36,032 nt of DNA from Anaerolineales bacterium (GCA_020354045.1 CP070639.1:127185-163216), one strand, 5' to 3'; counted from the first letter of the stretch, positions 4,159 to 21,855 are shown. A program made the numbers and translations. The notes: generated by a model from the sequence alone, not told the origin.

Positions 4159-5799
4159 TCAGGGAATTGTTCGAGCAGTTTGCGCGCGGGTGTAATCAGG
4201 TAAGATGATAGGAGCAGGCTGATCATCTTGTAAACCCGCCTCTTGGCGCATTTTTTCCCAGTTCTCAAGATGGTTCAAGCTGAAATCAGCCACCTCAGCC
4301 TGTTTTGCATACTCCGCTGCAGCTACCCCTGCCCGGCGCCCAAACACGCAAATATCCAATAAGCTGTTGCCCATTAATCGGTTACGCCCATGGATCCCGC
4401 CCGCTGCCTCCCCGGCGATAAATAAACCTGGTAACTGGGTGCCACCATTTGGGCTTATCGCGACCCCGCCATTTTGATAATGCAGGGTCGGATATACCAG
4501 GATAGGTTCGTTCAACATGTCAATTCCAAAGCGTTTATACTGGCGCACCATGGCAGGTAGCTCCCGCGCAATCGTCCCCGGTCCTTTGATCAAATCAATC
4601 ATCGGCGCGTCCAACCACACTGCTGGTTGACCTGTGGGAGTGGCTACACCCAGGTTGCGTTCCTGACATTCGCGAATAAAGGCAGCCGATTCTACATCGC
4701 GGGTTTCCAGTGGGAAGACGAACTGCTCACCCTCAACATTGCACAGCTGGGCACCCAGGCCGCGCACTTTTTCTGTGACCAGTTGACCCAGGATTTGCTC
4801 GGGGTAAGCCGCACCGGTAGGGTGATACTGCATCGTATCTATAAATGACAGCTTGGCACCGGCGCGATAGGCCAGCACCAAACCATCTCCCGTGGCCCCG
4901 TAGTGATTTGTGGTTGGGAAACCTTGATAATGTAAACGCCCACTGCCCCCAGTAGCGATGACTACCGCCCGGGCCTGGATAAGCATATATTGTCCGGTAT
5001 CCAGATCGAGGGCAACCGCTCCTGCTACCCGTCCTTGATCATCCAACAGCAATTCGACCACCGGTCGGAACTCCCAGATCAGGATAGAGGTCTGTGAGCC
5101 ATTCCCCCGTGACCTGACCTCATCGCGGAGCGTGCGCATAATCTCCGCCCCAGTGTAATCGCGAGCCGCATGCATGCGCTTTCGGCTGGTCCCGCCACCG
5201 TGGATTGTGCGCAACCTGCCATTAGGCTCTTTATCAAACATGGTTCCTAAAGCCTCCAGCCAGGCAATCACATCCGGGGCTTCATTCACTAAAACCTCAA
5301 CCAGCTCAGGGTCATTGCTAAAACCACCGCCGCCCATCACATCCAGGTAGTGTAAAGCAGGCGAATCGTTTTCCTTGTCTGCAGCCTGGATGCCGCCCTG
5401 AGCCATCATGGTGTTGGCATCACCAAAACGCAGCTTGGTGGTGAGCAAAACACTGGCGCCGTATTCCTGGGCAAGCAGGGCTGCGCATGCACCAGCCCCA
5501 CCACCCCCTATCACCAGCACATCACAGATATGTGAAACTGGATCGTTGAGAAGTTCAGGAACATGCCTGATCACCGCAGGAGCTTCGAGCGCATCAGCCA
5601 GCTCACGTGGGGCACGCTCCCCCCGATTGGGACCCAGGCGTAAAACGCGGAAAGCCTCCTCAATATAATCGGGGTGGAATTTTTTTAAGATGGTCTCGCG
5701 CTCCTGGGCAGACAGGCGTGGATGCGTTTCGGTTAAGCGTCGCTGGCGGGTGACCTCGACCTTGGTCATCGATTCACGGATTTGAGTTGGATAAGACAT
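4159..5799 (-). CDS. Soluble fumarate reductase/succinate dehydrogenase-type flavoprotein
   Basis: The 546-residue protein has the FAD-binding GGGGAG motif at about residues 98-103 and substrate-site features of the FrdA/SdhA/L-aspartate-oxidase family. These are HGGGTSRKRMHAARDYTG (about 200-217), QYHPTGAAYP, the LHYQNGGV histidine, and IAGEAAGGIHGRNRLMGNSLLD near the C-terminus. Such enzymes interconvert fumarate and succinate or reduce similar unsaturated acids via FAD. The roughly 90 residues before the Rossmann fold are an extension absent from ordinary FrdA. No SdhC/D anchor lies nearby, so a soluble complex with the SdhB-like and FrhB-like proteins of the same cluster is likely. The ATG at 5799 has a GAGGTG five bases upstream; a GTG two codons earlier is possible. 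The substrate is not proven, and L-aspartate oxidase is less likely given this context. Confidence 0.82.
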   Translation of the reverse strand: MSYPTQIRESMTKVEVTRQRRLTETHPRLSAQERETILKKFHPDYIEEAFRVLRLGPNRGERAPRELADALEAPAVIRHVPELLNDPVSHICDVLVIGGGGAGACAALLAQEYGASVLLTTKLRFGDANTMMAQGGIQAADKENDSPALHYLDVMGGGGFSNDPELVEVLVNEAPDVIAWLEALGTMFDKEPNGRLRTIHGGGTSRKRMHAARDYTGAEIMRTLRDEVRSRGNGSQTSILIWEFRPVVELLLDDQGRVAGAVALDLDTGQYMLIQARAVVIATGGSGRLHYQGFPTTNHYGATGDGLVLAYRAGAKLSFIDTMQYHPTGAAYPEQILGQLVTEKVRGLGAQLCNVEGEQFVFPLETRDVESAAFIRECQERNLGVATPTGQPAVWLDAPMIDLIKGPGTIARELPAMVRQYKRFGIDMLNEPILVYPTLHYQNGGVAISPNGGTQLPGLFIAGEAAGGIHGRNRLMGNSLLDICVFGRRAGVAAAEYAKQAEVADFSLNHLENWEKMRQEAGLQDDQPAPIILPDYTRAQTARTIP

Positions 5800-5815
5800 A
5801 TGCACCTCTTTAGTA

Positions 5816-6889
5816 TTAACTATGAGCCCAAGGCAGAGTTTGCTCAGGATCTCCTGGCGAATAGCTCATCTCCTGGCGGATACGGTGGCTGATGGAGGTG
5901 ATCAGCAAGCTGAATGGCTCCTGCTGGAAACAGTCTTCTGCGCACATGCCGCAACCAGAGCATGAAGCCAACCAGCGGCTAAGATGAACTAACTCTGAAA
6001 GCAGAGCTCGCTCGCCTGGCTGCTTCCTGCGCCTGGATGTCGCACCCTTTACTTCAAGCTCGTAAAGAGGGCATGCTGCCAGGCACTTGCCACACAAGTT
6101 ACAACTCGCCAACCAGGCAAAGAAGCTCCCCAGGTCGTTGAAACGATAGGCACCCGGCATATTCTCTATCAATGTGCGGCGCATACCCGCGCGCATATCA
6201 GACATCGCGCCTACTAAAGTCTCACGGTGTGAAGCCTGGTATTCTGTGGCTTTGCCATCGGTGATCTGATCCAGACCCAGGCGAGCATGCCTGACTTCAT
6301 CGCGGCTCACCAGAAGCAGGACCTGGTCAGTCGATACACCTATCGTCCCAATGGTCAGATCCGCAGCGCGCGGCGCAGGATGTTCACATACCAGGCAAGC
6401 TGTCCGCAGTGGCTGCACTCTCAAACCACCTGCAGCAGCATCCTGTAACGACTCACGCGCCAGTACCTGCGAGGTACGAGACTGGAGGCGCTGTTGGTAT
6501 TCCGGCACCGGATAAGTGCCTGGGCAATCCATGCCAATTAAAACCAGATTCTCAGGGTAATCCTGCCAGCCCTGACGCTTCTGCAGCTCAAAAAATGTGC
6601 ACAACTCACAGGGTCTCATGATCGCGCCAATTTTCCAACTGGGCTTTTCAGCAACTAACCTGGAGAGCAACGCAGCAGAATTGATAGGCATCAAAGGAGC
6701 AAAAGGGTTGATCGCTTGTATACCGGCACGATTTTCGATTACCGTGACAGCAACCCCTGGGGCGTCGTGCGTTTCCACCGGAGCCAGCAGCATATCAAAC
6801 CCAAATATCTTCCACCAGCTACTCATAAAATACCGTAATGTGGCTACTGCGTCGCCGTCTTTAACCTCCAGGATACAATAAACGTTCAT
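5816..6889 (-). CDS. FrhB/FdhB-type flavo-iron-sulfur protein, copy 3
   Basis: The 357-residue protein belongs with the coenzyme F420 hydrogenase/formate dehydrogenase beta-subunit family. It has an N-terminal alpha/beta part, the RPCE motif at about 92-95, an IGMDCPGTY segment at about 118-126, and two C-terminal [4Fe-4S] motifs (C263-C273 and C310-C320). The last is followed by F rather than the usual P. Family members carry a flavin and pass electrons between a dehydrogenase partner and F420, NAD(P) or ferredoxin. Here it sits between an acyl-CoA dehydrogenase-like gene and the SdhA-like flavoprotein, suggesting it wires those two. The frame is open to 7072, but a strong GGAGGTG just before the ATG at 6889 and alignment with the two paralogues fix this start. 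Confidence 0.82.
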   Translation of the reverse strand: MNVYCILEVKDGDAVATLRYFMSSWWKIFGFDMLLAPVETHDAPGVAVTVIENRAGIQAINPFAPLMPINSAALLSRLVAEKPSWKIGAIMRPCELCTFFELQKRQGWQDYPENLVLIGMDCPGTYPVPEYQQRLQSRTSQVLARESLQDAAAGGLRVQPLRTACLVCEHPAPRAADLTIGTIGVSTDQVLLLVSRDEVRHARLGLDQITDGKATEYQASHRETLVGAMSDMRAGMRRTLIENMPGAYRFNDLGSFFAWLASCNLCGKCLAACPLYELEVKGATSRRRKQPGERALLSELVHLSRWLASCSGCGMCAEDCFQQEPFSLLITSISHRIRQEMSYSPGDPEQTLPWAHS

Positions 6890-6923
6890 AGGACACCTCC
6901 AGCACCGCACCTCGCTTAGGATC

Positions 6924-8051
6924 TCAGCGATTTGGGTGCAGATCAAGCAGAGCCGTAGCGATTTCAGCCCGGGCTTTCTCCAGCGCCATCTCCAGAGTTT
7001 CAGGCGAGATAGCGCTATAACCGAACTGACTCGGCCCAATACCCCCAGCCGGTCCTGGACCGGCGTACACAAGTGTGACGCGCTCGACCGCAGCCTGGAG
7101 CAGTTTACCCGTGATCAAACGCACATTAGCAGCAGCCTGACGCAATTGATCCTCTCTGTCCAGACCAGCAAGCCAGGCAGCATGGTATACCAGCCAGCGA
7201 GCGCTCTCAAGCTCGGCATGCGTTTCAGCCAGCATCCTTTGGACTGCAGGTCGTGCTGACATTGGCGCTTCAAAAACTACCCAGTCCTTGGCATGCTCGA
7301 GCGCCATTTCAAGCAGCCGCTCCACAATGCCCACGTAGCGAGCACCCAGCCGGATTCTGGTGCTTGGAGCAGCGCTGGCAAGCATTTGCAGCGCGCCGTC
7401 CGGCTCGCCGATCAAGGCGTGCTTGCTTACCTGCATATTTACAAACTGCAGGGTAAACTCCCGGTCACCGGGTTTGCTCATCTGGCAGGTCAGCTGGCTG
7501 TTATCTGCATCCACCAGAAAAGCTGAATAACCCTGGGCTGATCTGGCCATAACCACCAAGAAATCTTCTGGTTGAGGATAGGTTTCCACCACCTTTTGTC
7601 CATTGAGTACGTAGTCCCCCTGGGCACCATTTCCACCAGGGATAGCCTGCATGTTCCAGCTCTGGGGATGGATTCTCCCAGGCTCGCGCACAGCCAGGAT
7701 CGCCCGGCGCTCTCCCGCCAGGGCTGGTTTCAGGTAGTGCGAGATTTGCTCACCAGAACAGGCGTAGAGCGACTGAGGTACCTCACCGATCTCGAGGGGA
7801 ACAAACGATTTCCCAAGCTCAATCTCCAACAGGCAAGCTGTCACCATATCCACCCCACCCCCGTGTTCCTCAGGGACGGTCAAACCCCATAAGCCCATTT
7901 GTTCGATAGCCCGGCGCAAATGGTCACGCTCTTCAGGTTCAAGCCTCCCGTTGGTGAAGTACTTCATCTCCAATGGGCGCACATCCTTTTGCACAAACCG
8001 CTTTAGCATGTCTCGCAGCATGAGTGTATCGGGAGCAAAATCGAAATCCAT
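6924..8051 (-). CDS. Divergent acyl-CoA dehydrogenase family protein
   Basis: The 375-residue length and three-part architecture match acyl-CoA dehydrogenases. There is an N-terminal helical domain with GLWGLTVPEEHGG (about residues 53-65), a middle beta domain with YVLNGQKVV, and a C-terminal helical domain. The family oxidises acyl-CoA to enoyl-CoA with FAD, normally handing electrons to ETF. Oddities: the usual LTEP/GSD active-site loop is replaced by VREPGRIHPQSW, and the canonical EGTxEI catalytic-base segment is not recognisable (SPETLEM lies at its expected place). Activity may therefore be altered, or the protein may be a flavin electron-transfer component. GAGGA lies just upstream of the ATG. 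Neighbours are SdhB-like, FrhB-like and SdhA-like genes; no etfAB genes are present. Confidence 0.82.
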   Translation of the reverse strand: MDFDFAPDTLMLRDMLKRFVQKDVRPLEMKYFTNGRLEPEERDHLRRAIEQMGLWGLTVPEEHGGGVDMVTACLLEIELGKSFVPLEIGEVPQSLYACSGEQISHYLKPALAGERRAILAVREPGRIHPQSWNMQAIPGGNGAQGDYVLNGQKVVETYPQPEDFLVVMARSAQGYSAFLVDADNSQLTCQMSKPGDREFTLQFVNMQVSKHALIGEPDGALQMLASAAPSTRIRLGARYVGIVERLLEMALEHAKDWVVFEAPMSARPAVQRMLAETHAELESARWLVYHAAWLAGLDREDQLRQAAANVRLITGKLLQAAVERVTLVYAGPGPAGGIGPSQFGYSAISPETLEMALEKARAEIATALLDLHPNR

Positions 8052-8122
8052 AAGTCATCCTCTATCGGCAGGCAATAAGAAACCTTGCACATGGCAGAGC
8101 GCATTGCATGTAAGGGCTGGTG

Positions 8123-8141
8123 TGTAGCTCAGCCAGCTACA
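8123..8141 (-). other. Stem-loop just after the SdhB-like stop codon
   Basis: TGTAGCT (8123-8129) and AGCTACA (8135-8141) form a perfect 7-bp stem with a 5-nt loop, starting about four nucleotides after the TGA at 8148-8146 on the minus strand. It lies within the 94-bp gap before the acyl-CoA dehydrogenase gene. No T-run follows, so it may affect mRNA processing or stability rather than terminate. Confidence 0.45.
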
Positions 8142-8145
8142 AGTT

Positions 8146-8811
8146 TCAGGCTTCGATTTGTCTGCTCTCATAACGGGTTTTTAGCTCAGCCAGGGGTAAA
8201 TCTTTGAGATCCTGAATCTCTGCCTGGTATTTTCCGGCTCGGATTTCCTGGACGCGCACGTGCAAGTGCTCTGCTTGTGGCGCTAGGTATTTTCCATACA
8301 ATCTGCGTCCGAGCAGGGCGACATTGGGCGGCACCAGCTCGGCAGGGCAGCGTGCTACGCAAAGCCCGCACATAATGCAATCAAATGAGGCATCCGCCAG
8401 GTTTTCAATTCCACCGCGTAATGCCGCCGCCATGTAACTCATCACATCCAGCTCCTGCGGGCACGATTTCGTACAGGTATTGCATCCAAAACAGGTCATT
8501 ATTTCTGGATAGACACCCAACAAGGTCTCACCGGTTGGTTGCAAGGTTGATAGCTCATAAGCGGGACGTTGAGCAGGGAAGAAAGGAATAGTCCCCAAAA
8601 CCATGCCGGATTGGGCAACCGTCTGGCATGCCAGCGCATAATGCAGGCGGTAATCACCAATAAAACGGTAAACCGTTCCGCATGCCCCGCAGAATCCTGC
8701 CCGGCAGCCCACGCCACGCTTCAGGTGAAACCCTGCCCATTCAAAGGCTTTTAGAATGGTTAACCCCTCAGGGACTTGGTAACGCTGACCTAGAATAGTA
8801 ATCTCAATCAC
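8146..8811 (-). CDS. SdhB/TfrB-like iron-sulfur protein ([2Fe-2S] plus 2x[4Fe-4S])
   Basis: The 221-residue protein has an N-terminal plant-type [2Fe-2S] domain (C36, C41, C44, C62). It is followed by two CxxCxxCxxxCP motifs (C107-C117 and C145-C155) resembling HdrC and the C-terminal half of SdhB. Classical SdhB carries [2Fe-2S], [4Fe-4S] and [3Fe-4S] clusters; here both C-terminal sites look like full [4Fe-4S] sites. That is more like the iron-sulfur subunits of soluble fumarate or thiol:fumarate reductases. It should connect the SdhA-like flavoprotein encoded two genes further on to other carriers. The start is a GTG at 8811 preceded by a strong GGGAGGT five to six bases upstream. An acyl-CoA dehydrogenase-like gene follows. 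Confidence 0.85.
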   Translation of the reverse strand: MIEITILGQRYQVPEGLTILKAFEWAGFHLKRGVGCRAGFCGACGTVYRFIGDYRLHYALACQTVAQSGMVLGTIPFFPAQRPAYELSTLQPTGETLLGVYPEIMTCFGCNTCTKSCPQELDVMSYMAAALRGGIENLADASFDCIMCGLCVARCPAELVPPNVALLGRRLYGKYLAPQAEHLHVRVQEIRAGKYQAEIQDLKDLPLAELKTRYESRQIEA

Positions 8812-8912: not shown

Positions 8913-9341
8913 TCAAGCCAGATCCAGCAGGAAAAGCTCCTCGGAGGTGGCTTTGGCTAAAAGCTCAGCCATACCCTCCGCCAGGTGAGTTTGAACCAGG
9001 TAAACCTTGAGGGTCGGGTCGACCTGTGGGCAAGCCAGGGCACAATTTCCACAACGATCACAGTCCTCTCCAACCAAAGTTTCCAGTGCCATAGAGGAGC
9101 GTGCCTCACTGCGCAACCGGCGTTTGGGATCTCGCACCAGCACTGGGCAAACATCCATGCAACAGCCGCATCCTAGGCAGGCTTTGCATCCAGCCAGCTG
9201 TTCAGAGACTTTAAGCATGTGTGCAGGGCCTAATCCAGAGCTGAGAAGCCGGCAGCGCGCCACAGGAGGGCGGTTTTGTGCCAGTATGATCTGCAAAATG
9301 GCTCGAACGTGCTGGGGGTCGGTCTGCTCTCTAAGCGGCAT
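8913..9341 (-). CDS. Small two-cluster ferredoxin-like protein
   Basis: The product (142 residues from the ATG at 9341) carries two [4Fe-4S] motifs. One is the Cys-rich CKACLGCGCCMDVCP segment in the middle; the other is CDRCGNCALACP. Spacing is HdrC-like, and no membrane helix is present. It probably shuttles electrons between the FrhB-like protein encoded just upstream and the Hdr modules. The ATG is preceded by GAGGAG seven bases upstream. An alternative TTG start at 9425 overlaps the stop of the previous gene and would add 28 residues containing a CTGCH sequence. I favour the ATG for its ribosome-binding site, but translational coupling from the TTG cannot be excluded. Confidence 0.78.
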   Translation of the reverse strand: MPLREQTDPQHVRAILQIILAQNRPPVARCRLLSSGLGPAHMLKVSEQLAGCKACLGCGCCMDVCPVLVRDPKRRLRSEARSSMALETLVGEDCDRCGNCALACPQVDPTLKVYLVQTHLAEGMAELLAKATSEELFLLDLA

Positions 9342-9421
9342 ATGGGTCTCCTCTTCGATAAAATGGCATCCGGTACATTCAACCTGTCCCGAGTGAGTTA
9401 CATTCCCACTTGGATCGCCAG

Positions 9422-10420
9422 TCAAGCAGCCAATAATGATTCAGCCAGCATTTGACTGATTCGTCCATGGATCGCTGTCAAGGCAAGCTGGCGAGGGCAG
9501 GCTTGCTCACACTGACCGCACATCACGCAGGAAGCTAGCCAGCGTCGTGCTTCTAGAGAGGCGACATCCTCGCCGTTTCCTTGGTTTGCAAGTTCACCAG
9601 CATAGATCGGGCAGGCCTCCAGGCACTTCTGGCAGGGGGTACAATTTTTCAGGTAAGCAACCAGCTCATCAGGACGCGCAGGAAGCTCGGCAGGTAATGA
9701 ATTAACGAGGCGCGTGTGCGTATTGTCGTGCGATCTAGCCAATCTAGATAGGGCGGCTTGATGTTGGATTAATAACCCATACGGTGCAATTCCAGATGTG
9801 AAACTGGCAATTCTCAAACGATCAGCAATCTCTTTACGCTTAATCTCGATGAGAATAAAGCGACGGATGGGCAATCCAATCAAACTAATGTTGATATCAA
9901 CATATTGCGGTGCAGTTGGTATGCACATTTGGCAAGCAGACCGGTAGCGATAAGGCGCAATTCCGCCCTGGCGGGCAAAGCGCAAGGTCTCCCTGACGAG
10001 CGGCTCCATCCCTCCGGCCTTTTGGGTGCGCCATTCCAGGTCCTGGATGGGATAGCTGGCCAGGCAATCTACGCCTATGAGTAGCCAGCGATGGCGGTTC
10101 TTAAAGCTGAACCTGGCATTGTAGAACAAAGCCCGTGCTTCGCAAGGGCGCAAAATTGCGCCAAAACGACCGGTAGGATGCTGAGCTGCAAATTGAGTGA
10201 CTATTTTGGCTGAATTCATCGGAACGAATGGCAAAAACGGATTCAGCGCAGCCAGTTCCTCCGGGCTTTGTAACAGCCGGTGCTGGATTTGCGCTGTTTC
10301 GTCCTGAAATGTGAGTGCTAGTATGCCTTGCAGGTTCGTTTCGATCCAAAGTGCAGCCAGGAATTTTCTTATCGCTTCCACAGGCTTTTCATTCGTTTCT
10401 AGGATATGGGTGGTGTTCAT
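9422..10420 (-). CDS. FrhB/FdhB-type flavo-iron-sulfur protein, copy 2
   Basis: The 332-residue protein is a shorter paralogue of the other two FrhB-like proteins in the cluster. It shares FLPFVPMNSAK (about 62-72), RPCEARAL (91-98), LLIGVDCLASYP (about 113-124), CQMC (163-166) and two C-terminal [4Fe-4S] sites (C260-C270 and C298-C308). By family it is a flavin-containing beta subunit that links a dehydrogenase or Hdr module to F420, NAD(P) or ferredoxin. It lies 22 bp after the QmoB-like HdrA gene and is followed by a small ferredoxin-like protein, so it belongs to the second, unfused Hdr set. AGGAAGGT precedes the ATG at 10420. No F420-biosynthesis gene is present, so its true electron partner is open. 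Confidence 0.82.
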   Translation of the reverse strand: MNTTHILETNEKPVEAIRKFLAALWIETNLQGILALTFQDETAQIQHRLLQSPEELAALNPFLPFVPMNSAKIVTQFAAQHPTGRFGAILRPCEARALFYNARFSFKNRHRWLLIGVDCLASYPIQDLEWRTQKAGGMEPLVRETLRFARQGGIAPYRYRSACQMCIPTAPQYVDINISLIGLPIRRFILIEIKRKEIADRLRIASFTSGIAPYGLLIQHQAALSRLARSHDNTHTRLVNSLPAELPARPDELVAYLKNCTPCQKCLEACPIYAGELANQGNGEDVASLEARRWLASCVMCGQCEQACPRQLALTAIHGRISQMLAESLLAA

Positions 10421-10442: not shown

Positions 10443-12188
10443 CTATTTGGCCATCAACGAAGCAGTAGGTAATAACTCTTGTTTACGCTGGTGATTTGAC
10501 CCATTCAGCAGTACCTCCAGCTGGGCCATGGTTTGTGTGAAAGTGAAGTGACTGACTGTCACTGCACCAGAGGGGCAGGCCGACGCACAGGCTCCACAGC
10601 CCTGGCATAGCACTTGGTTGACGGTCATCACATTCCTGACCGGGTGCAGTCTGAGCGCCCCATACGTGCATACCTGGGCACACTGACCACACCCGGCGCA
10701 CAATTCCTCTTCCACATAAGCGGTAGCAGCCTCCACCTGCACCTGGCCACGCAATAGCGGAATCATTGCAGCCGCCGCCGCACCACGCGCCTGGGAGATG
10801 GAATCGGCGATATCCTTGGGCCCCTGGCAGCAGCCTGCCAGGAATACCCCGGCCACAGAGGTATCCACAGGGCGCAACTTGGGATGCGCTTCCATAAAAA
10901 ATCCATCCGCTGATCGAGAGAGCTTAAGCAAGCTTGCTAAGGCGGCGCTATCCTGGCGCGGCACCATCCCCAAAGCTAGCACAACCAGGTCAGCTTCCAC
11001 CTCTACAACTTCACCGAGCAAGGTGTCCTCCGCTCGTACCAGCAGGTGCTCACCCTGACGAAGGATTTCGGAGGGATTGCCCCGGCGATAGATCACCCCG
11101 CAGGTGCGCACCTGGTCATAGAATTCTTCAAACCCTTTTCCAAAGGCGCGCACATCCATGTAGAAGATAGTCACCTCCGCCTCCGGAAGCCTCTGGCGCA
11201 CCCATTTCGCTTGGCGCGCCGCAACCATGCAGCACACGCGCGAGCAGTATGGGTTACCCAGCGACTGGTCGCGCGAACCAACGCACTGGATGAAAACCAC
11301 CTTTCTCGGTGAGTGGCCATTTACTTGCAGATTCTGTGCGGATAGGAGCTCGAAATCCAGCGTGGTAATCACCTGGGGGTAGAGGCCATAGCCAAACTCT
11401 TTTTTGATATGCGCGTCGAAGACCTCAAAACCGGTGGCGATGACGATCGACCCAGCTGACACAGTGCGCATTTCCTCACTCTGCCGCACGCTGGCTTCGA
11501 AATTACCCACAAATCCCTTGATTTCTTCGACTTCAGCAGACAGCATCACCTCGATCCGGGGGTGGGCATCCACGCGCTCCATTAAAGGCCGCAGCAATTC
11601 GCGTGCAGGTTGCATATAGGGAAAAGTAGTATGCAACTGGGCGGCATGACCTCCAGGCTGTTCAGCCCGCTCGACCAGGGTGACCTGAAAACCCGCCTCG
11701 GCAATATCCAGTGCAGCCTGCAGACCAGCAATCCCTCCCCCAATGACCAGGGCAGATGGCGACACCTCGACCTGCCTGGTTATTAGAGGTTGCAGATGGG
11801 CAGCCTTAGCCACCGCAGAAGCGATCAAATCCATTGCCTTTTGGGTAGTCGCTTCACTGCCAGGGTGGACCCAGGAACATTGCTCGCGGATATTTGCCAT
11901 TTCAAAGCAGTAGGGATTCAAGCCTGCCGAAGCTACTGCAGCGCGAAAGGTAGGCTCATGCATGCGGGGAGAACATGAAGCGACCACAACGCGGTTCAGC
12001 TTGAGCTGTTCAATATCCTCCTTAATAAGCGCCTGTCCCGGGTCTGAACACATATAGGTGTAGTCACGAGCAATGATGACCGCAGGTAGGCTGGCTGCAA
12101 AGGCAGTAACAGCCTCGATATCTACGCTAGCAGAGATATTGATGCCGCAGTGGCAGATGTAAACGCCGATACGAGGGGTAAAGGCCAT
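10443..12188 (-). CDS. HdrA-like flavoprotein, QmoB-like, with C-terminal double ferredoxin
   Basis: The 581-residue protein begins with the HdrA N-terminal domain (IGVYICHCGINI; VVVASCSPRMHEPTFR; FEMANIREQCSWVH). This is followed by the FAD-binding thioredoxin-reductase fold (VIGGGIAG at about 147-154), the CVGSRD...YCSRVCC Cys cluster and GVFLAGCCQGPKDI. Two C-terminal [4Fe-4S] sites follow (CAGCGQCAQVC and CQGCGACASACP). In Hdr complexes HdrA carries the bifurcating FAD. The Cys pair after the first FAD motif, present in the neighbouring HdrA, is replaced here by GGHAAQLHTTFPYMQP. The frame is open to 12236, but the ATG at 12188 has AGGAG upstream and matches the family N-terminus. It lies 28 bp after hdrD, and with HdrD and the QmoA-like HdrA it resembles the QmoAB-HdrBC type of soluble assembly. 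Confidence 0.88.
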   Translation of the reverse strand: MAFTPRIGVYICHCGINISASVDIEAVTAFAASLPAVIIARDYTYMCSDPGQALIKEDIEQLKLNRVVVASCSPRMHEPTFRAAVASAGLNPYCFEMANIREQCSWVHPGSEATTQKAMDLIASAVAKAAHLQPLITRQVEVSPSALVIGGGIAGLQAALDIAEAGFQVTLVERAEQPGGHAAQLHTTFPYMQPARELLRPLMERVDAHPRIEVMLSAEVEEIKGFVGNFEASVRQSEEMRTVSAGSIVIATGFEVFDAHIKKEFGYGLYPQVITTLDFELLSAQNLQVNGHSPRKVVFIQCVGSRDQSLGNPYCSRVCCMVAARQAKWVRQRLPEAEVTIFYMDVRAFGKGFEEFYDQVRTCGVIYRRGNPSEILRQGEHLLVRAEDTLLGEVVEVEADLVVLALGMVPRQDSAALASLLKLSRSADGFFMEAHPKLRPVDTSVAGVFLAGCCQGPKDIADSISQARGAAAAAMIPLLRGQVQVEAATAYVEEELCAGCGQCAQVCTYGALRLHPVRNVMTVNQVLCQGCGACASACPSGAVTVSHFTFTQTMAQLEVLLNGSNHQRKQELLPTASLMAK

Positions 12189-12216
12189 GACTTTTGCAAC
12201 TCCTGATTTGTTGAAT

Positions 12217-13344
12217 CTATAACACCTGATCAGCAATCTCGGCGATATCCATCACGCGCAGTTTATCTTCTGCGTTCTGGTGCTTGAGGGCTTCTTCCAG
12301 CGTCAGCAAGCAGAAGGGACAGGCGGTGGCGAGCACCTGAGCCCCTGTATCAAGTGCTTCCTGGATGCGCCAGCGTGCCAGGCGGGTTCCGGGATTGCTG
12401 CCTTCCAGCCACATCCGCCCCCCACCCCCTTCGCAGCATAGGCTCTTTTCGCGTGAGCGGTCCATCTCAACCAGCTTCAACCCGGGAATGCCGGTTAAAA
12501 CCTGGCGTGGCTCATCATAAATACCATTATGCTTACCCAGGTAGCAAGGGTCGTGGAAAGTGACTGTCTTTTCAAATCGGCCCGAAAATTTCAACCAGCC
12601 GTTCTCCAAGGCGCGTGATAGCAGTTGCGTGTAATGCTCAACCTGCACACCATTTTGGGGATAATCGTTCTTGAAGGCATTGAAACAATGTGGGGATGTG
12701 GTAAACATCTTGTCCACACTCATAGCTTTAAGCATTTCCTGATTTTCTTCCACGATCATCTCAAATAGACCTGCTTCACCCAGGCGGCGAATCTCACTGC
12801 CACAGCAGCTTTCTTCCTCCGCCAGAAAACCAAAGTCCAGATTTGCGTGTTGAACCAGCTTTACCAGAGAACGGGCGACCTGCTGAACACGGGGATCGTA
12901 GCTGGGTGTACAGCCGACAAAAAACAGGTATTCCACGCCCTCGCCAAAGGGTTTGATGGATAGATCGCTCGCCCATCTAACGCGCTCTTCGCGCGGCATG
13001 CTCAACGGGTTGCCGTGCCTGAAGGTGCTTTCCAGAGCGGTTTTGACGTTTGGATGTACCCGGCCTTTCTCAACAAATGCGCCGCGCAGGGCGATGACCG
13101 CTTCCATTGGGTTAACCAGCTTCGGACAACGGCTGGAGCAGGTGGCGCAGGTAGTACAATCCCAGAGCTCCTCACGCCCTTCTAGATCATAACCATTGCC
13201 CGCCACCAGTAGCCGGTAGATCAGGTTGCGTGGGTTAAGTGTCGTTTTGACAGCCATGGGACAGCCCCCTGTGCACTTCCCACACTGGATGCAGGCAAAC
13301 AGGTTGTGAGTTGTGGCAAATTGGCGACTTTCAATTTGTAGCAT
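12217..13344 (-). CDS. hdrD: HdrD-like protein (fused HdrC + HdrB type)
   Basis: The 375-residue protein has two N-terminal [4Fe-4S] sites (C18-C28 and C63-C73), as in HdrC or GlpC. Two CCG domains follow, as in HdrB: the first around GCTPSYDPR...CCGSE...SPHCF, the second DPCYLGKHNGIYDEPRQ...CCEGGGG...ACPFC. In HdrB and HdrD the CCG domains bind the noncubane clusters that reduce CoM-S-S-CoB or an analogous disulfide. The first CCG domain ends in a single Cys (SPHCF) rather than CxxC. The protein is encoded between two HdrA genes, with its start overlapping the stop of the QmoA-like HdrA by 14 bp; AGGAG precedes the ATG. The bacterial substrate is unknown; GlpC or lactate-oxidation Fe-S subunits share this architecture, but the HdrA neighbours favour an Hdr role. 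Confidence 0.85.
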   Translation of the reverse strand: MLQIESRQFATTHNLFACIQCGKCTGGCPMAVKTTLNPRNLIYRLLVAGNGYDLEGREELWDCTTCATCSSRCPKLVNPMEAVIALRGAFVEKGRVHPNVKTALESTFRHGNPLSMPREERVRWASDLSIKPFGEGVEYLFFVGCTPSYDPRVQQVARSLVKLVQHANLDFGFLAEEESCCGSEIRRLGEAGLFEMIVEENQEMLKAMSVDKMFTTSPHCFNAFKNDYPQNGVQVEHYTQLLSRALENGWLKFSGRFEKTVTFHDPCYLGKHNGIYDEPRQVLTGIPGLKLVEMDRSREKSLCCEGGGGRMWLEGSNPGTRLARWRIQEALDTGAQVLATACPFCLLTLEEALKHQNAEDKLRVMDIAEIADQVL

Positions 13345-14719
13345 AGCTGGCTCCTATTCCTACAAGGATGGCAGGTTCACCGCGCATTTTTGCCAGGGAA
13401 ATCAACGCTGCAGACGCAGCTGCTTTGGCGTGTGCAACCGTATCCGGTATATCTTTAGGACCTTGACAGCAACCAGCCAGGAATACACCCGGCAGGCTGC
13501 TCTCAACAGTCTGGAGTTTGGGGTGCTGTTCCAGGAAGTATCCGTCTTCGCCGCGAGCCAGTTTGATGGCCTGAGCAAAGCCATCTGCCTCCCGGCGCGG
13601 TTGCATACCCACCGCTAGCACCACCAGATCCGCTTCGATCTCAACCAGCTCTCCGAGCAGCGTATCTTCTGCCCTGACGACAAGATTTTCGCCGCGCCGG
13701 ATGATCTCGGAGGGATTACCGCGCCGGTAAAGCACCCCCTCATGACGCACGCGGTCATAGAATTCCTCAAAACCCTTACCGAAGGCACGTATATCCATAT
13801 AGAGCACAGTGATCTCTGCACCAGGAAGGCGATCATGCGCCAGGTGCGCTTGCTTGGCGACCGCCATGCAGCACACCCGCGAACAATTCGGCAGGTCGAT
13901 GCTCAGGTCGCGCGAGCCGACACACTGGATAAAAACCAGTTTTTCAGGTTGGTGCTCGTTCAACCTGATCTTCCCGGCAGTGGGACCCGAAGCTGAGGCC
14001 AGGCGCTCGAATTCCAGGGTCGTGATCACCTGCGGATATACGCCGTAACCAAATTCTGGCTTACGGCGGGCATCGAACACGTCATAACCGGTGGCAATTA
14101 CAATCGTGCTCACGTTTACCTCAATCAATTGCTCGCTTTGGGTGAAATCGATGGCGCCAGCTGTGCAGGCCTCCTGGCATTTGAAAGTCTTACCGCACAC
14201 GCCGCGCGTCAGGTACACACAGGCTTCTGGATCCACGGTGTAGATCAGCGGCACAGCCTGTGGGAATGGCACATAGATGGCCGCGCGCTTGGCAATCCCG
14301 GCGTTAAACTCAGTGAGTGGGTCACCGCGCACCCGCCCATTCAAGCGGCAGGCTTCGGCGCACAAGCCGCAACCGCGGCACTTGCTTTCATCCACATAGC
14401 GCGGCTTGCGCCGGATCTGTACCTGAAAATCTCCCATCTGCCCGCTTACTTTGGCTACTTCGGAGTAAGTGAGCAGCTGGATGTTTGGGTGCCTGCTGAC
14501 ATCCACCATCTTGGGGGTTAGGATGCAAGATGAACAATCCAGGGTTGGGAAGGTTTTATCGAGCTGCGCCATGCGCCCACCAATACTCGCTGAGCGCTCT
14601 ACCAGTGTGACTTGAAACCCACCATCGGCGATGTCGAGCGCGGCCTGTATCCCGGCAATCCCCCCGCCGATCACCAGTGCGGCGGGTTCAAGCCTGTTGG
14701 GCAAATCATAGGTACTCAT
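13331..14719 (-). CDS. hdrA: HdrA-like flavoprotein, QmoA-like
   Basis: The 462-residue protein has the FAD motif VIGGGIAG (about 16-23) and GGRMAQLDKTFPTLDCSSC with the paired C62/C65. A [4Fe-4S] site (C114-C124), a further Cys set (C167, C175, C181, C185), IQCVGSRD...NCSRVCC and GVFLAGCCQGPKDI follow. It lacks the CHCG N-terminal domain and the C-terminal ferredoxins of larger HdrA, as in QmoA. The conserved HdrA fold binds the FAD used for electron confurcation or bifurcation. It overlaps the preceding FrhB-like gene by four bases (ATGA) and the following hdrD by 14 bases, so the three are translationally coupled. Its C-terminal lobe is strikingly similar to that of the neighbouring QmoB-like HdrA. 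Confidence 0.88.
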   Translation of the reverse strand: MSTYDLPNRLEPAALVIGGGIAGIQAALDIADGGFQVTLVERSASIGGRMAQLDKTFPTLDCSSCILTPKMVDVSRHPNIQLLTYSEVAKVSGQMGDFQVQIRRKPRYVDESKCRGCGLCAEACRLNGRVRGDPLTEFNAGIAKRAAIYVPFPQAVPLIYTVDPEACVYLTRGVCGKTFKCQEACTAGAIDFTQSEQLIEVNVSTIVIATGYDVFDARRKPEFGYGVYPQVITTLEFERLASASGPTAGKIRLNEHQPEKLVFIQCVGSRDLSIDLPNCSRVCCMAVAKQAHLAHDRLPGAEITVLYMDIRAFGKGFEEFYDRVRHEGVLYRRGNPSEIIRRGENLVVRAEDTLLGELVEIEADLVVLAVGMQPRREADGFAQAIKLARGEDGYFLEQHPKLQTVESSLPGVFLAGCCQGPKDIPDTVAHAKAAASAALISLAKMRGEPAILVGIGASYATN

Positions 14720-15834
14720 TTCACTTCACCAATTTCGTTCCACTCATTCGCCTGGAAAGTGACCAACGGCAGAGGTTCCTGGAGGTCTTTCCCCGGGGTA
14801 TAGCCAAAGGCTGCCTGAACCTGGGTACCGATCGTGCTGAATATGAGTCCTACCGGAATATCCACCGGGCAGGCTGAGCTGCACATACCACAGCTCACAC
14901 AGGAAGCTGCCATGTGGTTCATGCGTGTCAGGTGAAACAGCAGTGTGTCTCCCAGGAGACGGATCGCGCCTTTGCGGTAGGCGGCGTTTAAATAGTGCTC
15001 AGGCGGGTGATCGAAAGCCGCTGTGCGGAACAGGCAGGTCTTGCAATAGCAAATTGGGCAGGCAGTCATACAATTGTGGCAGCGCAAACAAGCCGCAAAC
15101 ATTTGGGCAATCGAACCATTGGAGCCGAGCCTGGCTTGAAGAGCGCTAATTTCTGCTTCGCGCAGCTTTTGCTTATCTCCCAATACTTGCTCGATGACCT
15201 GCTGGCGCTTTTTTACCTGGTAATCAAGCACCGGGGTGAGACCCAGTTTTTCAGCAAGCTCTTCCCCAATCTCCACAAACAGGCCTCCAGCTAGACCCTC
15301 TCCATAGATGTGGAGATGAATATCCGCTTGTTCAGGGATAGGTTGGGTGCACATCTGGCATGCTAGGCGCAAATCAGGACCCTCCAGCTGTTCACCGCGC
15401 CCCGCTGCCTGGAGCGCATCCTCCAGTGCGAATAGGGCTTCTTTTTGAATTGCCTGATAATCCGCTAGCTCATAAGTTCCCGGGCAATCCACGCCGATCA
15501 AGAGCACATCCTCCAGAGACGCTTGCTGCAGTTTGACCAGCTCAACGAGGGCACGCGTCTCGCAGGAACGCAAAACTGCTCCCAGGCGTGCCGGCGCCTT
15601 TTTCTGTGTCAATGCCGAAATCGCCCGCGCTCCGTTTACCAGCATAACCGGCGCAAGCGGGTTCGCGCTTTCCAGCCTGGCTGGATCGGTCACCAGGGCG
15701 GGTAAGATCTGCCCCTCGGCTGATTCAAGCGGGACGTACAAGGCATCTACCACATCATTGGACAGCAGGGTCTGGAGAAAGCTCCGCACCGCTGTCAGTG
15801 CATCTCCATCTTTCAGGGGGAATAATCCAATCAT
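14716..15834 (-). CDS. FrhB/FdhB-type flavo-iron-sulfur protein, copy 1
   Basis: The 372-residue protein belongs to the F420-hydrogenase/formate-dehydrogenase beta-subunit family. RSCETRAL lies at 89-96 and IGVDCPGTYE at about 113-122. A [4Fe-4S] site (C249-C259) runs directly into an extra Cys group (ICYCKTC, about 261-267), and a second [4Fe-4S] site is C312-C322. The CPICYCKxC arrangement is typical of FdhB-type subunits. Lying next to mvhD and the giant HdrA, it probably delivers electrons from a formate- or NAD(P)-linked flavin site through MvhD to HdrA, as FdhB and MvhD do in methanogen Fdh-Hdr complexes. No catalytic FdhA lies in the window. GAGGT lies four bases before the ATG. Confidence 0.85.
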   Translation of the reverse strand: MIGLFPLKDGDALTAVRSFLQTLLSNDVVDALYVPLESAEGQILPALVTDPARLESANPLAPVMLVNGARAISALTQKKAPARLGAVLRSCETRALVELVKLQQASLEDVLLIGVDCPGTYELADYQAIQKEALFALEDALQAAGRGEQLEGPDLRLACQMCTQPIPEQADIHLHIYGEGLAGGLFVEIGEELAEKLGLTPVLDYQVKKRQQVIEQVLGDKQKLREAEISALQARLGSNGSIAQMFAACLRCHNCMTACPICYCKTCLFRTAAFDHPPEHYLNAAYRKGAIRLLGDTLLFHLTRMNHMAASCVSCGMCSSACPVDIPVGLIFSTIGTQVQAAFGYTPGKDLQEPLPLVTFQANEWNEIGEVK

Positions 15835-15898: not shown

Positions 15899-16330
15899 TT
15901 AAATCGCCCAGGCTACTTGCATCGGGTTAGGGCCCATCTCTTTTAAAGAAGCCACCATATCGGTAATGGTATCGGCGAATTTTTGACCCTCGCTGGCGCT
16001 GATCCAGCGCAACCAGACCCGCCGTGGGTCGAAACCGCTGGCCCGTAAGATCTCCTGCATAGCAACATACCGCCGCCGTGTCTTATAGTTGCCAGTCTGG
16101 TAGTGGCAATCACCGGGGTGGCAGCCGCCAATCAGCACGCCATCTGCGCCATCCAGCAGTGGCTTCAGCACATAAACCGGGTCCACTGAACTGCTGCACA
16201 TCGTCCGGATGATCCGCACGTTGGGAGGATATTGCAGGCGCGAGGTGCCCGCCAGGTCTGCACCCGTGTAGGTGCACCAATTGCAAAGAAACGCCACAAT
16301 GCGAGGTTCAAAGTGATTGTTATCAGGCAT
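15899..16330 (-). CDS. mvhD: MvhD-type [2Fe-2S] protein linking to HdrA
   Basis: The 143-residue length and sequence match the MvhD (F420-non-reducing hydrogenase iron-sulfur subunit D) family. FLCNWCTYTGADLAG has C16 and C19, RTMCSSSVDP has C45, and GGCHPGDCHY has C70 and C75. MvhD carries a [2Fe-2S] cluster and docks hydrogenase or formate dehydrogenase onto HdrA, passing electrons to its bifurcating FAD. Here it lies between the giant HdrA fusion (38 bp upstream) and an FdhB-type protein (64 bp downstream), which fits that relay role. GGAG is eight bases before the ATG. Confidence 0.93.
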   Translation of the reverse strand: MPDNNHFEPRIVAFLCNWCTYTGADLAGTSRLQYPPNVRIIRTMCSSSVDPVYVLKPLLDGADGVLIGGCHPGDCHYQTGNYKTRRRYVAMQEILRASGFDPRRVWLRWISASEGQKFADTITDMVASLKEMGPNPMQVAWAI

Positions 16331-16368: not shown

Positions 16369-19300
16369 TTAAACTGCAGTTTCTAACATCCCAAATAGCT
16401 GCGCAAACTCGAAACCCTTCAGTTGGGAAGCCTTGTTGGGGCAGCTTGTGACGCATGCCCCACAGCCCTGGCACAGCACCTCGATCACTTCAGCATGATT
16501 CATCCCGGGCTCAAGCAGGCGCGCGCCATAAGGGCAGGCTTCAACACACATTCCACAGGCTGCACATAGCCGCGGGTTGACACTGGCCACGATCGGCGTG
16601 GCTTCCAGCTTGGTGCGGGAGAGCAAAGAAACCGCCCGGATGGCAGCCGCACTGGCCTGGGCAATAGTTTCCTGGATGCTGCGCGGTGAGTGTGCCAGAC
16701 CTGCCAGGTATATGCCTTCAGCGGCAAAATCCACCGGGCGCAGCTTCACATGAGCCTCCAGGAAGAATCCATTTTCATTCAACGGCACTTTCAGCAGCTG
16801 GGCTAAGTGGGCATTTCCACTTTCGGCTTCGATGCCAGTGCTGAGCACTACCCAATCGGCAGTCAGGCTGATCTCCTCCTCATCAGGTTGGACCGTTACC
16901 TCCACCTCCAACCATGTCTTGCCCGCCAGGTTCACCTGCGGCTTCTTATCCGGATGGTATTCCAGGAAGATTACCCCTGCCTGGCGCGCCTGTCTGTAAA
17001 GCAGCTCGCGCAAGCCGTAGCTGCGCAGGTCGCGGTACAGGATGACGACGCTCGTCTTTGGGTGGATGCGCTTGATCGCCAGGGCATTCTTTAGCGCCTG
17101 TGTGCAGCAAACCCGTGAACAGTACGGGTGGTATTCATCACGTGAGCCCACGCACTGGATGAAAACAATCGCCTGGCTATCCAGTAATAGGGAGGGGTGT
17201 TCATGAATCATCGCCTCCAGTTCGCGTTGGGTCAGCAAGCGAGGATGCTGTCCATAATGGTATTCAACAGGCGTTATTTCCCGCCCCCCGGTAGCAACCA
17301 CAGTAGCCCCATGTTCAAGGGTGAGCTCAGAGCCTGAGGCCAGCTTGATACGCGTGCAAAATTGACCCGCATAACCACCATGCTCAAGCACTTCCGCTCC
17401 AGTCAGCACCTGGATGCGCGCATGGGCATTTACCGCGGCGAGCGTCTCCCTGAGCAGGCGCTGTGGATCAAAGCTGCCGGGCATACTGGTATAGATATGT
17501 TTCAGGTTGCCGCCTAATTCGCGCTCGCACTCAACCAGGGTGACTGCAAAACCCTGTCTGGCGATAGAGAGAGCCGCGGTCATGCCAGCCAGACCCCCAC
17601 CGATGACCAGTGCATGCGGGTTGACATCAAAAAAGTTGCGCGAGAGCGGCTGTAATTTTCCAGCCTTGGCAGCTGCCATCGAAACCAGTTGCTTGGCTTT
17701 ATTCGTAGCAGCTTGATGATCCGCGCGATGCACCCAGGAATCCTGCTCACGGATATTAGCCATCTCAAACAGGTGCGGATTCAATCCGGCCTGCCGTAGC
17801 GTGTCTTGAAAGAGAGGTTCATGAGTGCGCGGCGTACAGGATGCCACCACCACCCGGTTGAGCCCCAATTCTTTGATCTGGTTGGTGATGCGCTCCTGGG
17901 TATCCTGCGAACAGGTATACAGGTTGTGCTCTGCATAGACCACACCCGGCAGCGTGCGAGCATAGTCGACCACCGCAGGCACGTCGATGACCGCGCCGAT
18001 ATTGATGCCGCAGTGACAGATAAAAATCCCAACTCGCTCCGGCTCGTCGGAGGTATCCCTTTCGGGTGGGTATTCGGGTATGCGCGTCAGGGTGCCGCGT
18101 GCTTCTGCCAGCAACTCCGAAATTCGCCCCGCGGCACAGGAGGCCTCAATCACCGATTCGGGGATATCTTTCGGCTCGATAAAAGCGCCCGCCGCATATA
18201 TCCCCGCCTGGGAGGTTTGGGTGAGGTCAATTCCAGACGATTGGATAAAACCATATTCATTCAAAGCCACCCCGAGCCTTCCAGCTAGCTCGCGGGTTGC
18301 CTGGGAGGGGCGCATGCCCACGGATAGGACGACCAGCTCGAACTGCTCCTCGTGATAGACGGGATGTTTCTGCTCTACCCCCGCATAGGAGATATATCCC
18401 AGGCGCAAATTGTGAGTGCTTGGCACCTCCTTGACCGAGGAAATCATGCATCGAAGAAAACGCACACCATGTTCCTGTGTGGCGCGCTCAATATAGGTTT
18501 CGAAACCCTTGCCAAAGGAACGGATATCCATATAGAAAATCGTCGGCTCAATGTTGGCATCATGCTCACGTGCGATGATGGCTTCTTTGGTAGCATACAT
18601 GCAACAAATCGAGGAGCAATATGCCGCTCGGCTTTCTCCGTCCAGCCTGGTGGTACAGTCCCGCGAGCCCACACACTGGATCCAGGCAACCTTACGTGGA
18701 TGTGCTCCGTCAGAAGGGCGTTGCACCACCCCCGAGAACGGGCCAGAGGCTGAGAGCATACGCTCAAACTGCAGGCTGGTGATGACATTGGGATAACGTC
18801 CGTAGCCATATTCAGGCCGAATATCTCCAGGCATGGGTTCAAGCCCAGGAGTAAGTAGCACTGCCCCCACCTGGATTTCCAACAGGTGTTCACAATCATT
18901 GTGCGCGATAGCTCCAGCACGGCAGGCATAAGCACACTGGTTGCATTCCGAGCACACACCGCAGTGCAGGCAGCGGATAGCCTCTGCTTGCGCCTGTTCT
19001 GGGGAGAGACCGGCGTATACTTCCAGGAAATCATTCCGCCGCTCAGCTGCAGCTCGTTGATAGGATTCACTACGTTTAGCTGGTGAAGCCTCTGCCAGAG
19101 TAACACGCCGCAGGGCTTCCTCGGGTGCTAGACGGGCAATCCCCGGTACCAACGGAGTCTCCTGCAGAGATAGGGCAGGCTCTCCAGTGAGGTGAGTTTC
19201 AATGGACCTGGCTGCCCGGCGACCCGCAGCAATTGCATCCACAATAAATGCTGTTCCTGTCACAGCATCTCCACCCGCGAAAATTCCCGGCACATCGGTT

Positions 19301-20907
19301 GCCAGTGTTTCAGGATCAGCCACTATGCGTTTGTTGCGCTGGCAGGTAACCTGCTTAAGGGCTTCTGATTGGGGGCGCTGACCAATTGCGAAGATGACGA
19401 CATCTGCCGGTATGATTTGCTCAGTCGCGGGGTATTCATCAAAATCCGGTTTACCATCCACAAAGCCACGGAAGTCCACCTGCACTGTGCGAACACCTGT
19501 GACCTTGTCCTGCTGACAGGTGATCTCTTTGAAAGTACGCGCCGGGAACAGCTGGACGCCCTCCTCTTGCGCGTCGGCGATCTCCCAATCATGAGCTGGC
19601 ATTTGTGCCCGGCTTTCCAGGCAGGTCATGCCCACCCAGGCGGCCCCCAAACGCAACGCATTGGTGGCTGAATCGATTGCCACATTGCCTCCGCCCAGCA
19701 CCAGCACACGCCGGCTTCGCAGGTCAGGCAACCTGGCTCCACTTTCCGGAAGGTTGACCAGCCGCAGAAAATCGGTGGCGAGCAGTACATCCGGTAAATC
19801 TGCACCAGGGATCGGCAGCTTTGCACCGGCATGCGCCCCTATAGCCACAAATACCGCCTCAAAATCCTCCAGCAGGGCTTCCACCTTGTTGACCCGCTGG
19901 TTTAGCTTCAGCTCAATCCCTAATGCCAGGATGTCATCAATCTCGCGCTGCACAATCTCAGGTGGTAGCCGGTAGATCGGGACACCGGCGCGCAGCATGC
20001 CACCAGGAACTGGCAATGCTTCAAACACCGTTACCTGGCAACCACGCCGCGCCAGCTCTTGTGCACAGGTCAGCCCGGCAGGTCCAGAACCCACAATCGC
20101 AACCTTTTTTCCAGACAAAGTTTGCTCCGAAAACTGAGCGCGCATGGTTTCTACCACCTGCCACCGTTCTTCAGGATGCTCCCAGGCCCAATCAGCTACA
20201 AAGCGCTTGACTGCCATAATGTTCACAGCCTGATCTGCCTGCGCCCGGTTGCAGGCTTCTTCACAGCGATGGTTGCACACACGTCCACAGATGGAGGGAA
20301 AAGGGTTTTCTTCCAAAATTGTGCGGTAGGCATCGGCAAAACGGCCCTCGGCAACCAGCGCCAGGTAGCCCTGGGCGCGCTGGTGAATCGGGCAAGCATC
20401 TTTACAGGGAGCAATGCCAACTTTATCGATGGTGTAGACGTTGGGAATGGCTTGTGGGTATAGCTTATAAATGGCTTTACGCCGAGAGAGGCCGCCGTTA
20501 AATTCATCGGGGAGGGTGATGGGGCAAGCCTGCGTGCATTCTCCACAGCCAGTACATTTTTGGCGATCGACAAAGCGGGGATGCTGGCGAATCAAAACTT
20601 TAAAGTTCCCCGGAACCCCGCTGATCCCTTCCACATCCGCGTTCGTGAGTAGCTCAATATTTATATGCCTGCCAACATCAACCAGCTTAGGCGACATGAT
20701 GCACATGGCGCAATCATTGGTGGGGAAGGTTTTATCGAGCTGAGCCATCTTGCCGCCAATCGCAGGCGCCCGGTCCAGCAGATAGACCTTCAGGCCTGCT
20801 TCAGCCAGATCGAGGGCAGCTTGCATCCCGGCGATTCCTGCCCCCACGACTAGTGTCGTGCCTACCGGACCTTTACCATCCCCGCGTCCGTTCTCAGGGT
20901 TTTCCAT
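16369..20907 (-). CDS. hdrA: Giant HdrA-NfnB/GltD-HdrA fusion flavoprotein
   Basis: The 1512-residue protein joins three redox units. Residues 1-163 are the start of a QmoA-like HdrA (FAD motif GAGIAG 22-27; CAMC 66-69; [4Fe-4S] C118-C128). Residues about 164-578 are a GltD/NfnB/dihydropyrimidine-dehydrogenase-type module with an N-terminal Fe-S domain (C168, C172, C207, C211, C215, C219). It has FAD site GSGPAG 273-278, NAD(P)-binding GGGN 405-408 and AGGDA near 544-548. Residues 579-940 resume the first HdrA ([4Fe-4S] C652-C662; CVGSRD at 745). Residues about 959-1512 are a complete QmoB-like HdrA (CHCGIN at 964; GGGLAG 1103-1108; two ferredoxin sites C1448-C1458 and C1479-C1489). At least three flavin sites are expected. 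The ATG at 20907 has AGGAAGG upstream; an ATG at 20943 adds 12 residues but lacks one. hdrB precedes and mvhD follows. Confidence 0.92.
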   Translation of the reverse strand: MENPENGRGDGKGPVGTTLVVGAGIAGMQAALDLAEAGLKVYLLDRAPAIGGKMAQLDKTFPTNDCAMCIMSPKLVDVGRHINIELLTNADVEGISGVPGNFKVLIRQHPRFVDRQKCTGCGECTQACPITLPDEFNGGLSRRKAIYKLYPQAIPNVYTIDKVGIAPCKDACPIHQRAQGYLALVAEGRFADAYRTILEENPFPSICGRVCNHRCEEACNRAQADQAVNIMAVKRFVADWAWEHPEERWQVVETMRAQFSEQTLSGKKVAIVGSGPAGLTCAQELARRGCQVTVFEALPVPGGMLRAGVPIYRLPPEIVQREIDDILALGIELKLNQRVNKVEALLEDFEAVFVAIGAHAGAKLPIPGADLPDVLLATDFLRLVNLPESGARLPDLRSRRVLVLGGGNVAIDSATNALRLGAAWVGMTCLESRAQMPAHDWEIADAQEEGVQLFPARTFKEITCQQDKVTGVRTVQVDFRGFVDGKPDFDEYPATEQIIPADVVIFAIGQRPQSEALKQVTCQRNKRIVADPETLATDVPGIFAGGDAVTGTAFIVDAIAAGRRAARSIETHLTGEPALSLQETPLVPGIARLAPEEALRRVTLAEASPAKRSESYQRAAAERRNDFLEVYAGLSPEQAQAEAIRCLHCGVCSECNQCAYACRAGAIAHNDCEHLLEIQVGAVLLTPGLEPMPGDIRPEYGYGRYPNVITSLQFERMLSASGPFSGVVQRPSDGAHPRKVAWIQCVGSRDCTTRLDGESRAAYCSSICCMYATKEAIIAREHDANIEPTIFYMDIRSFGKGFETYIERATQEHGVRFLRCMISSVKEVPSTHNLRLGYISYAGVEQKHPVYHEEQFELVVLSVGMRPSQATRELAGRLGVALNEYGFIQSSGIDLTQTSQAGIYAAGAFIEPKDIPESVIEASCAAGRISELLAEARGTLTRIPEYPPERDTSDEPERVGIFICHCGINIGAVIDVPAVVDYARTLPGVVYAEHNLYTCSQDTQERITNQIKELGLNRVVVASCTPRTHEPLFQDTLRQAGLNPHLFEMANIREQDSWVHRADHQAATNKAKQLVSMAAAKAGKLQPLSRNFFDVNPHALVIGGGLAGMTAALSIARQGFAVTLVECERELGGNLKHIYTSMPGSFDPQRLLRETLAAVNAHARIQVLTGAEVLEHGGYAGQFCTRIKLASGSELTLEHGATVVATGGREITPVEYHYGQHPRLLTQRELEAMIHEHPSLLLDSQAIVFIQCVGSRDEYHPYCSRVCCTQALKNALAIKRIHPKTSVVILYRDLRSYGLRELLYRQARQAGVIFLEYHPDKKPQVNLAGKTWLEVEVTVQPDEEEISLTADWVVLSTGIEAESGNAHLAQLLKVPLNENGFFLEAHVKLRPVDFAAEGIYLAGLAHSPRSIQETIAQASAAAIRAVSLLSRTKLEATPIVASVNPRLCAACGMCVEACPYGARLLEPGMNHAEVIEVLCQGCGACVTSCPNKASQLKGFEFAQLFGMLETAV

Positions 20908-20963
20908 ATTGCCTTCCTGGTAGTGAAATTCTCTTGACTTCATTCAGGTATAAAAAGCAGTGT

Positions 20964-21854: not shown

Positions 21855-21855
21855 A

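Follow-up and report, generated by a model that had tools for sequence, protein, structure and literature searches.

What an anchor-free pair of SdhA/SdhB-like subunits does beside an acyl-CoA dehydrogenase (ACAD)-like protein and an FrhB-like protein is the question raised by a 36,032-nt stretch of DNA (the window) from an Anaerolineales bacterium (GCA_020354045.1 CP070639.1:127185-163216); coordinates below are positions in this window, unless stated otherwise. A preliminary description regarded these genes as a module of four. They are instead the 3' end of a co-directional minus-strand run of 16 genes, extending from 23923 down to 4159, whose further Hdr-related content comprises HdrB, HdrC, three HdrA, MvhD, and two FrhB/FdhB-like proteins beyond that of the module (frhB1). 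Most of the genes overlap or lie ≤65 bases apart, with a widest gap of ~100 bases, and because of these short gaps the run is likely to be one operon. In our reading, the product of this operon is probably a soluble fumarate reductase connected to a flavin-based bifurcation core, HdrABC-MvhD. The genes of the run are as follows.

4159..5799, minus strand: FrdA/TfrA-like flavoprotein, with a conserved N-terminal extension of ~90 residues and without the histidine for covalent flavin adenine dinucleotide (FAD)
5816..6889, minus strand: FrhB/FdhB-like Fe-S protein 1 (frhB1); the start is an ATG (MNVYC...) right after the stop of the ACAD-like gene
6924..8051, minus strand: ACAD-like protein, a putative pseudo-enzyme that has lost the canonical FAD contacts
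8146..8811, minus strand: SdhB/TfrB-N-like protein, cysteine patterns for one [2Fe-2S] and two [4Fe-4S]
8913..9425, minus strand: fd2, a small 2x[4Fe-4S] protein, kept with the SdhB-like gene in WOR-3 too
9422..10420, minus strand: FrhB/FdhB-like protein 2 (FrhB2)
10443..12236, minus strand: HdrA-like protein 1 (HdrA2 model, 677 bits)
12217..13344, minus strand: HdrC-HdrB fusion (best model, the C-terminal part of TfrB, 183 bits)
13331..14719, minus strand: HdrA-like protein 2 (HdrA2 model, 542 bits)
14716..15834, minus strand: FrhB/FdhB/ElpB-like protein 3 (FrhB3), also akin to proteins at the FlxC position in relatives
15899..16330, minus strand: MvhD/FlpD
16369..20943, minus strand: HdrA of 1524 amino acids, with an inserted GltD NAD(P)H-type domain and a second HdrA part
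20964..21887, minus strand: HdrB, with two CCG cysteine patterns
21856..22377, minus strand: HdrC 1
22409..23332, minus strand: formate/nitrite transporter of the FocA family, inside the run
23336..23923, minus strand: HdrC 2, the first gene of the co-directional run

The open reading frame (ORF) for the FrdA-like protein (4159-5805) matched FAD_binding_2 along its length with 245 bits; since M3 is invariant among relatives, translation most likely starts at 5799, not 5805. Assignment to the FrdA type with its substrate site was borne out, H328, R348, H442, and R476 being kept in the alignment. Among NCBIfam models the best was TfrA, from the thiol:fumarate reductase of methanogens (347 bits, below the cut-off of 718 bits), and the models for succinate dehydrogenase/fumarate reductase and NadB ranked behind it. 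Neither the covalent-FAD histidine nor the SdhC/D anchors of the quinone-dependent enzymes were found: the histidine position is asparagine (N131), and a profile search gave no Sdh_cyt match anywhere in the own genome, which confirmed the lack of membrane anchors and eliminated a location elsewhere on the genome. The Fe-S partner also agreed with its first description, with cysteines at 8146-8811 that fit one [2Fe-2S] and two full CxxCxxCxxxCP [4Fe-4S] sites. In the case of frhB1, the listed ORF (5816-7072) begins too far upstream, overlapping the ACAD-like gene, and the probable start is 6889; its match to PF04432 (22.4 bits) was just below the cut-off of 23.3, but the paralogue FrhB3 matched FdhB/ElpB of Hdr complexes by profile. 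FrhB3, the one protein to which this examination was applied, has an FdhB-like fold (TM scores of 0.77 and 0.75 to FdhB (7bkb) and ElpB (8rvu), respectively) together with the Fe-S cysteines; its relation to the FlxC-position proteins is weaker than that to FdhB/ElpB.

Of 60 further genomes from the same family and order, 14 encode an FrdA of 63-73% identity, and the order HdrC-HdrB-GltD/HdrA-MvhD-FrhB3-SdhB-FrdA was kept in most of those 14 with enough flank. Of the four-gene order, whose conservation the preliminary description had named as a check, SdhB-FrdA is thus retained together with the Hdr core, but the ACAD-like protein and FrhB1, like FrhB2 and fd2, were common only to the closest two of these genomes. 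A scan of 84,980 species genomes yielded at least 559 FrdA relatives, and the neighbourhoods of the best 80 were examined. According to record titles, these 80 belong mostly to Anaerolineae and other Chloroflexota, and also include WOR-3, Zixibacteria, Firmicutes, Cetobacterium, and one archaeal metagenome-assembled genome (MAG); a cultivated carrier of the family is Desulfofundulus thermobenzoicus. The SdhB-like gene was present in 74 of the 75 loci having upstream sequence, and among 48 loci of ≥14 kb, HdrA, HdrB, and MvhD were found in 39, 28, and 26, respectively. Anchors used by such subunits elsewhere, which the preliminary description had regarded as fatal to its proposal, did not recur: small transmembrane genes occurred near frdA in 6 of the 80 loci with no pattern, and the one scanned was FUSC-like and was rejected as an anchor. 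Genes near the pair in Firmicutes include those for both subunits (alpha and beta) of class I fumarase, for malic enzyme, for succinyl-CoA ligase, and for CoA-transferase III, as well as FlxA/B/C-type genes. Since fumarase, malic enzyme, and succinyl-CoA ligase adjoin these relatives, fumarate/succinate is the likely substrate, in line with the soluble, fumarate-reducing enzyme first suggested.

On the donor side, the preliminary description suggested the flavin of FrhB as the electron source; since the run also contains, directly upstream, HdrABC-MvhD, which is kept in relatives, this flavin is hardly the first choice for the site of bifurcation. MvhD and HdrA are fed by the FdhB/ElpB subunit in the Fdh and Elp complexes, and the GltD insert in archaeal "type III" HdrA has been interpreted as a site for NADH (PMC12054007). 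By analogy, the donor may be NAD(P)H at the GltD insert of the 1524-amino-acid HdrA and/or F420H2 or another carrier that would enter at the FdhB-like arm via MvhD; CofD (F420) is present in the own genome. We infer that the gene products would assemble as one complex, in which the flavin of HdrA would split the electron pair: one electron would pass to ferredoxin, and the second would travel via HdrC/HdrB and the SdhB-like Fe-S subunit to FrdA, whose non-covalently bound FAD would reduce fumarate to succinate. From textbook standard potentials, the reaction of 2 NADH with fumarate and 2 oxidized ferredoxins was computed to be favourable by about -49 kJ/mol, and the physiological direction is therefore probably fumarate reduction.

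Three observations weigh against this reading. Three HdrA and three FrhB-like proteins are more than one simple complex needs. Six long relative loci hold the FrdA pair without any Hdr gene in the stretch, and Hdr is consequently not obligatory. Furthermore, no match to class I fumarase alpha/beta or to the FumC C-terminal model was found in the own genome; related carriers do have fumarase. As the own assembly is rated 84% complete, the missing fumarase may reflect an assembly gap, or fumarate may come from purine/arginine synthesis.

The ACAD-like protein (6924-8051) proved as divergent as first noted, with 54 bits to the acyl-CoA dehydrogenase model. The fold is present (Foldseek TM scores of about 0.7 to many ACADs), the last ~40 C-terminal residues of the predicted model being of low confidence. 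When 298 genomes of the class were scanned, nine ACAD matches scored 417-553 bits, and all other ACADs among the matches listed ≤256. The SdhB-like gene adjoined 9 of 9 members of this group but none of the 21 ordinary ACAD loci, for which a flank of 1.5 kb was covered; some of the rows are probably one locus twice, and independent members are fewer than rows. By sequence, the ACAD-like proteins are a separate clade, found only with an SdhB/FrdA-type enzyme. The positions of T136, aromatic 166, R281, and Q349 of medium-chain acyl-CoA dehydrogenase (MCAD), which we take to be FAD contacts, are changed across the members (R281 almost always to Trp), and the EGT motif is gone; ordinary ACADs mostly retain both. 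Because these flavin contacts are changed, the subunit looks catalytically dead. Loss of the catalytic Glu was dropped as an argument, since a Glu aligns at that position in many members. Acyl-CoA chemistry, including the re-oxidation of acyl-CoA once considered for this module, is unlikely, and the protein is probably a structural or docking subunit of the proposed complex; if dead, it would provide a new example of an enzyme co-opted as a scaffold.

In three WOR-3 MAGs (L102 7892-12724, L081 4010-9001, and L075 19-3984), genes for EtfA, fd2, the SdhB-like protein, and FrdA are consecutive, and the ACAD-like gene is directly next in two, the third contig ending there; neither an Hdr gene nor EtfB beside EtfA was seen in these stretches. 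Tentatively, and with slightly more doubt than conviction, we suggest that a dead ACAD was recruited as a structural or electron transfer flavoprotein (ETF)-docking subunit of the Hdr-linked bifurcating fumarate reductase, fd2, the SdhB-like protein, FrdA, and the ACAD-like protein forming a cassette common to Chloroflexota and WOR-3, in the latter with EtfA and without Hdr. The earlier statement that ETF is lacking applies to the run, but not to the genome, which elsewhere contains six ordinary ACADs and an ETF pair (C1:185041-186598) about 22 kb past the window end. A second HdrA/GltD-like stretch lies a few kb from this pair (L049 17430-19829; C1:180430-182829).

Among other explanations, a soluble enzyme of the thiol:fumarate reductase type without bifurcation, in which FrdA-SdhB-HdrB would act like methanogen TfrAB by oxidizing a dithiol or taking electrons from Hdr or ferredoxin, has a modest chance of being correct. 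Methanogen TfrAB is likewise soluble, TfrA and TfrB are the best models for FrdA and the HdrCB fusion, respectively, and some Firmicutes loci consist of HdrC-HdrB-SdhB-FrdA only (L096). On the other hand, FrdA scores under half of the curated TfrA cut-off, TfrB corresponds here to two separate proteins, one SdhB-like and the other HdrCB, and the run and most relatives also contain HdrA, MvhD, and modules for electron input of the NAD(P)H or FdhB-like kind; to our knowledge, coenzyme M and coenzyme B are not to be expected in these bacteria. Less probable is an enzyme for another enoic acid, or one in which the ACAD-like subunit also acts on acyl-CoA. Enzymes with the FrdA fold differ in their substrates, an ACAD relative is part of the operon, and CoA-transferase III genes lie near some relatives; however, the C4-acid enzymes adjoining relatives and the canonical substrate residues of FrdA argue against another enoate, and the altered FAD contacts of the ACAD-like clade against acyl-CoA. 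It is very unlikely that the complex is a succinate dehydrogenase working by confurcation (NADH being formed from succinate and reduced ferredoxin), such as during syntrophic growth. The genes for CoA-transferase, succinyl-CoA ligase, and malic enzyme in Syntrophomonadaceae-type loci would also be consistent with succinate oxidation, but this direction would cost about +49 kJ/mol with NADH at standard potentials. An L-aspartate oxidase (NadB) that passes its electrons to a soluble acceptor, the other outcome regarded as fatal in the preliminary description, can practically be set aside, because the own genome has no SdhC/D anchor, no NadA (as is the case in 7 of 8 carrier genomes), and no second SdhA/NadB-type protein, while the position aligned with E121 of Escherichia coli NadB, presumably a functional residue, is glycine and the relatives' neighbours are C4-acid enzymes, although NadB models reach ~285 bits (276 bits for the one whose cut-off is 452.75) and the FAD site is without the covalent histidine. 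A second FAD_binding_2 match in the own genome (L002) was judged by eye to be parts of glycerol-3-phosphate dehydrogenase, not SdhA; at 2600-2778 of this locus, a glycerol-3-phosphate-dehydrogenase-like frame enters a masked stretch, and a transposase-like ORF follows on the opposite strand.

The suggestion of a new bifurcation scheme holds for the link to flavin-based bifurcation, but not for its novelty, since an Hdr-linked bifurcating fumarate reductase is already known as a proposal (PMC7282089, PMC6315080, and PMC11636981). In the "succinate operon" of Pseudoclostridium thermosuccinogenes (PMC7282089, citing a 2019 preprint), a two-gene fumarate reductase adjoins an NADH-linked Hdr bifurcation complex and fumarase. 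By that description, rather than by sequence, a similar architecture is found in Firmicutes relatives (e.g., L121). The window differs in having no FlxA/FlxB, which the GltD domain inside HdrA may replace, and in adding the extra HdrA, the HdrCB fusion, the FrhB-like proteins, and the ACAD-like protein. In tubeworm symbionts and Thioflavicoccus, tfrAB is interspersed with flxABCD-hdrABC, and direct electron transfer has been proposed (PMC6315080 and PMC11636981); there, the genes belong to a reverse tricarboxylic acid cycle cluster with korABCD and ATP citrate lyase, none of which was seen in the window. FdhAB-MvhD-HdrABC (7bkb) and Elp-Hdr (8rvu) of methanogens resemble the run in the fold and sequence of FrhB3, which is encoded next to MvhD and HdrA, whereas no FdhA/ElpA partner was seen in the run, and the acceptor module is FrdA/SdhB, not heterodisulfide. 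GltD inside HdrA and HdrA parts in tandem are features of the type III and type II HdrA, respectively, of methane-metabolizing archaea (PMC12054007); here, both are joined in one bacterial protein. Our literature searches turned up no account of an Hdr/ACAD/fumarate-reductase cluster with this composition. What is new is the breadth of the family, the combination of FdhB-like arms with a GltD/tandem HdrA, and the presence of an ACAD-like subunit.

NADH-driven fumarate reduction frees far more energy than ferredoxin reduction costs, and a bifurcating fumarate reductase, if true, would allow anaerobes to save this energy independently of a membrane. With at least 559 relatives in many phyla and a cultivated carrier, a published idea whose accounts, in the passages concerned, contain no enzyme assays becomes testable.

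Several neighbouring features were also observed. The FocA-family transporter gene sits within the Hdr operon, and the window showed no gene for a formate dehydrogenase. Within ~23 kb before the window, genes of the aldehyde-oxidase/xanthine-dehydrogenase type, an XdhC-like gene, and CofD were found (L047 14235-17939 and L048 3185-16786), the first of which were considered and judged to be unrelated to the run. In the reading direction, the 16-gene run is preceded by an A/V-type ATP synthase operon.

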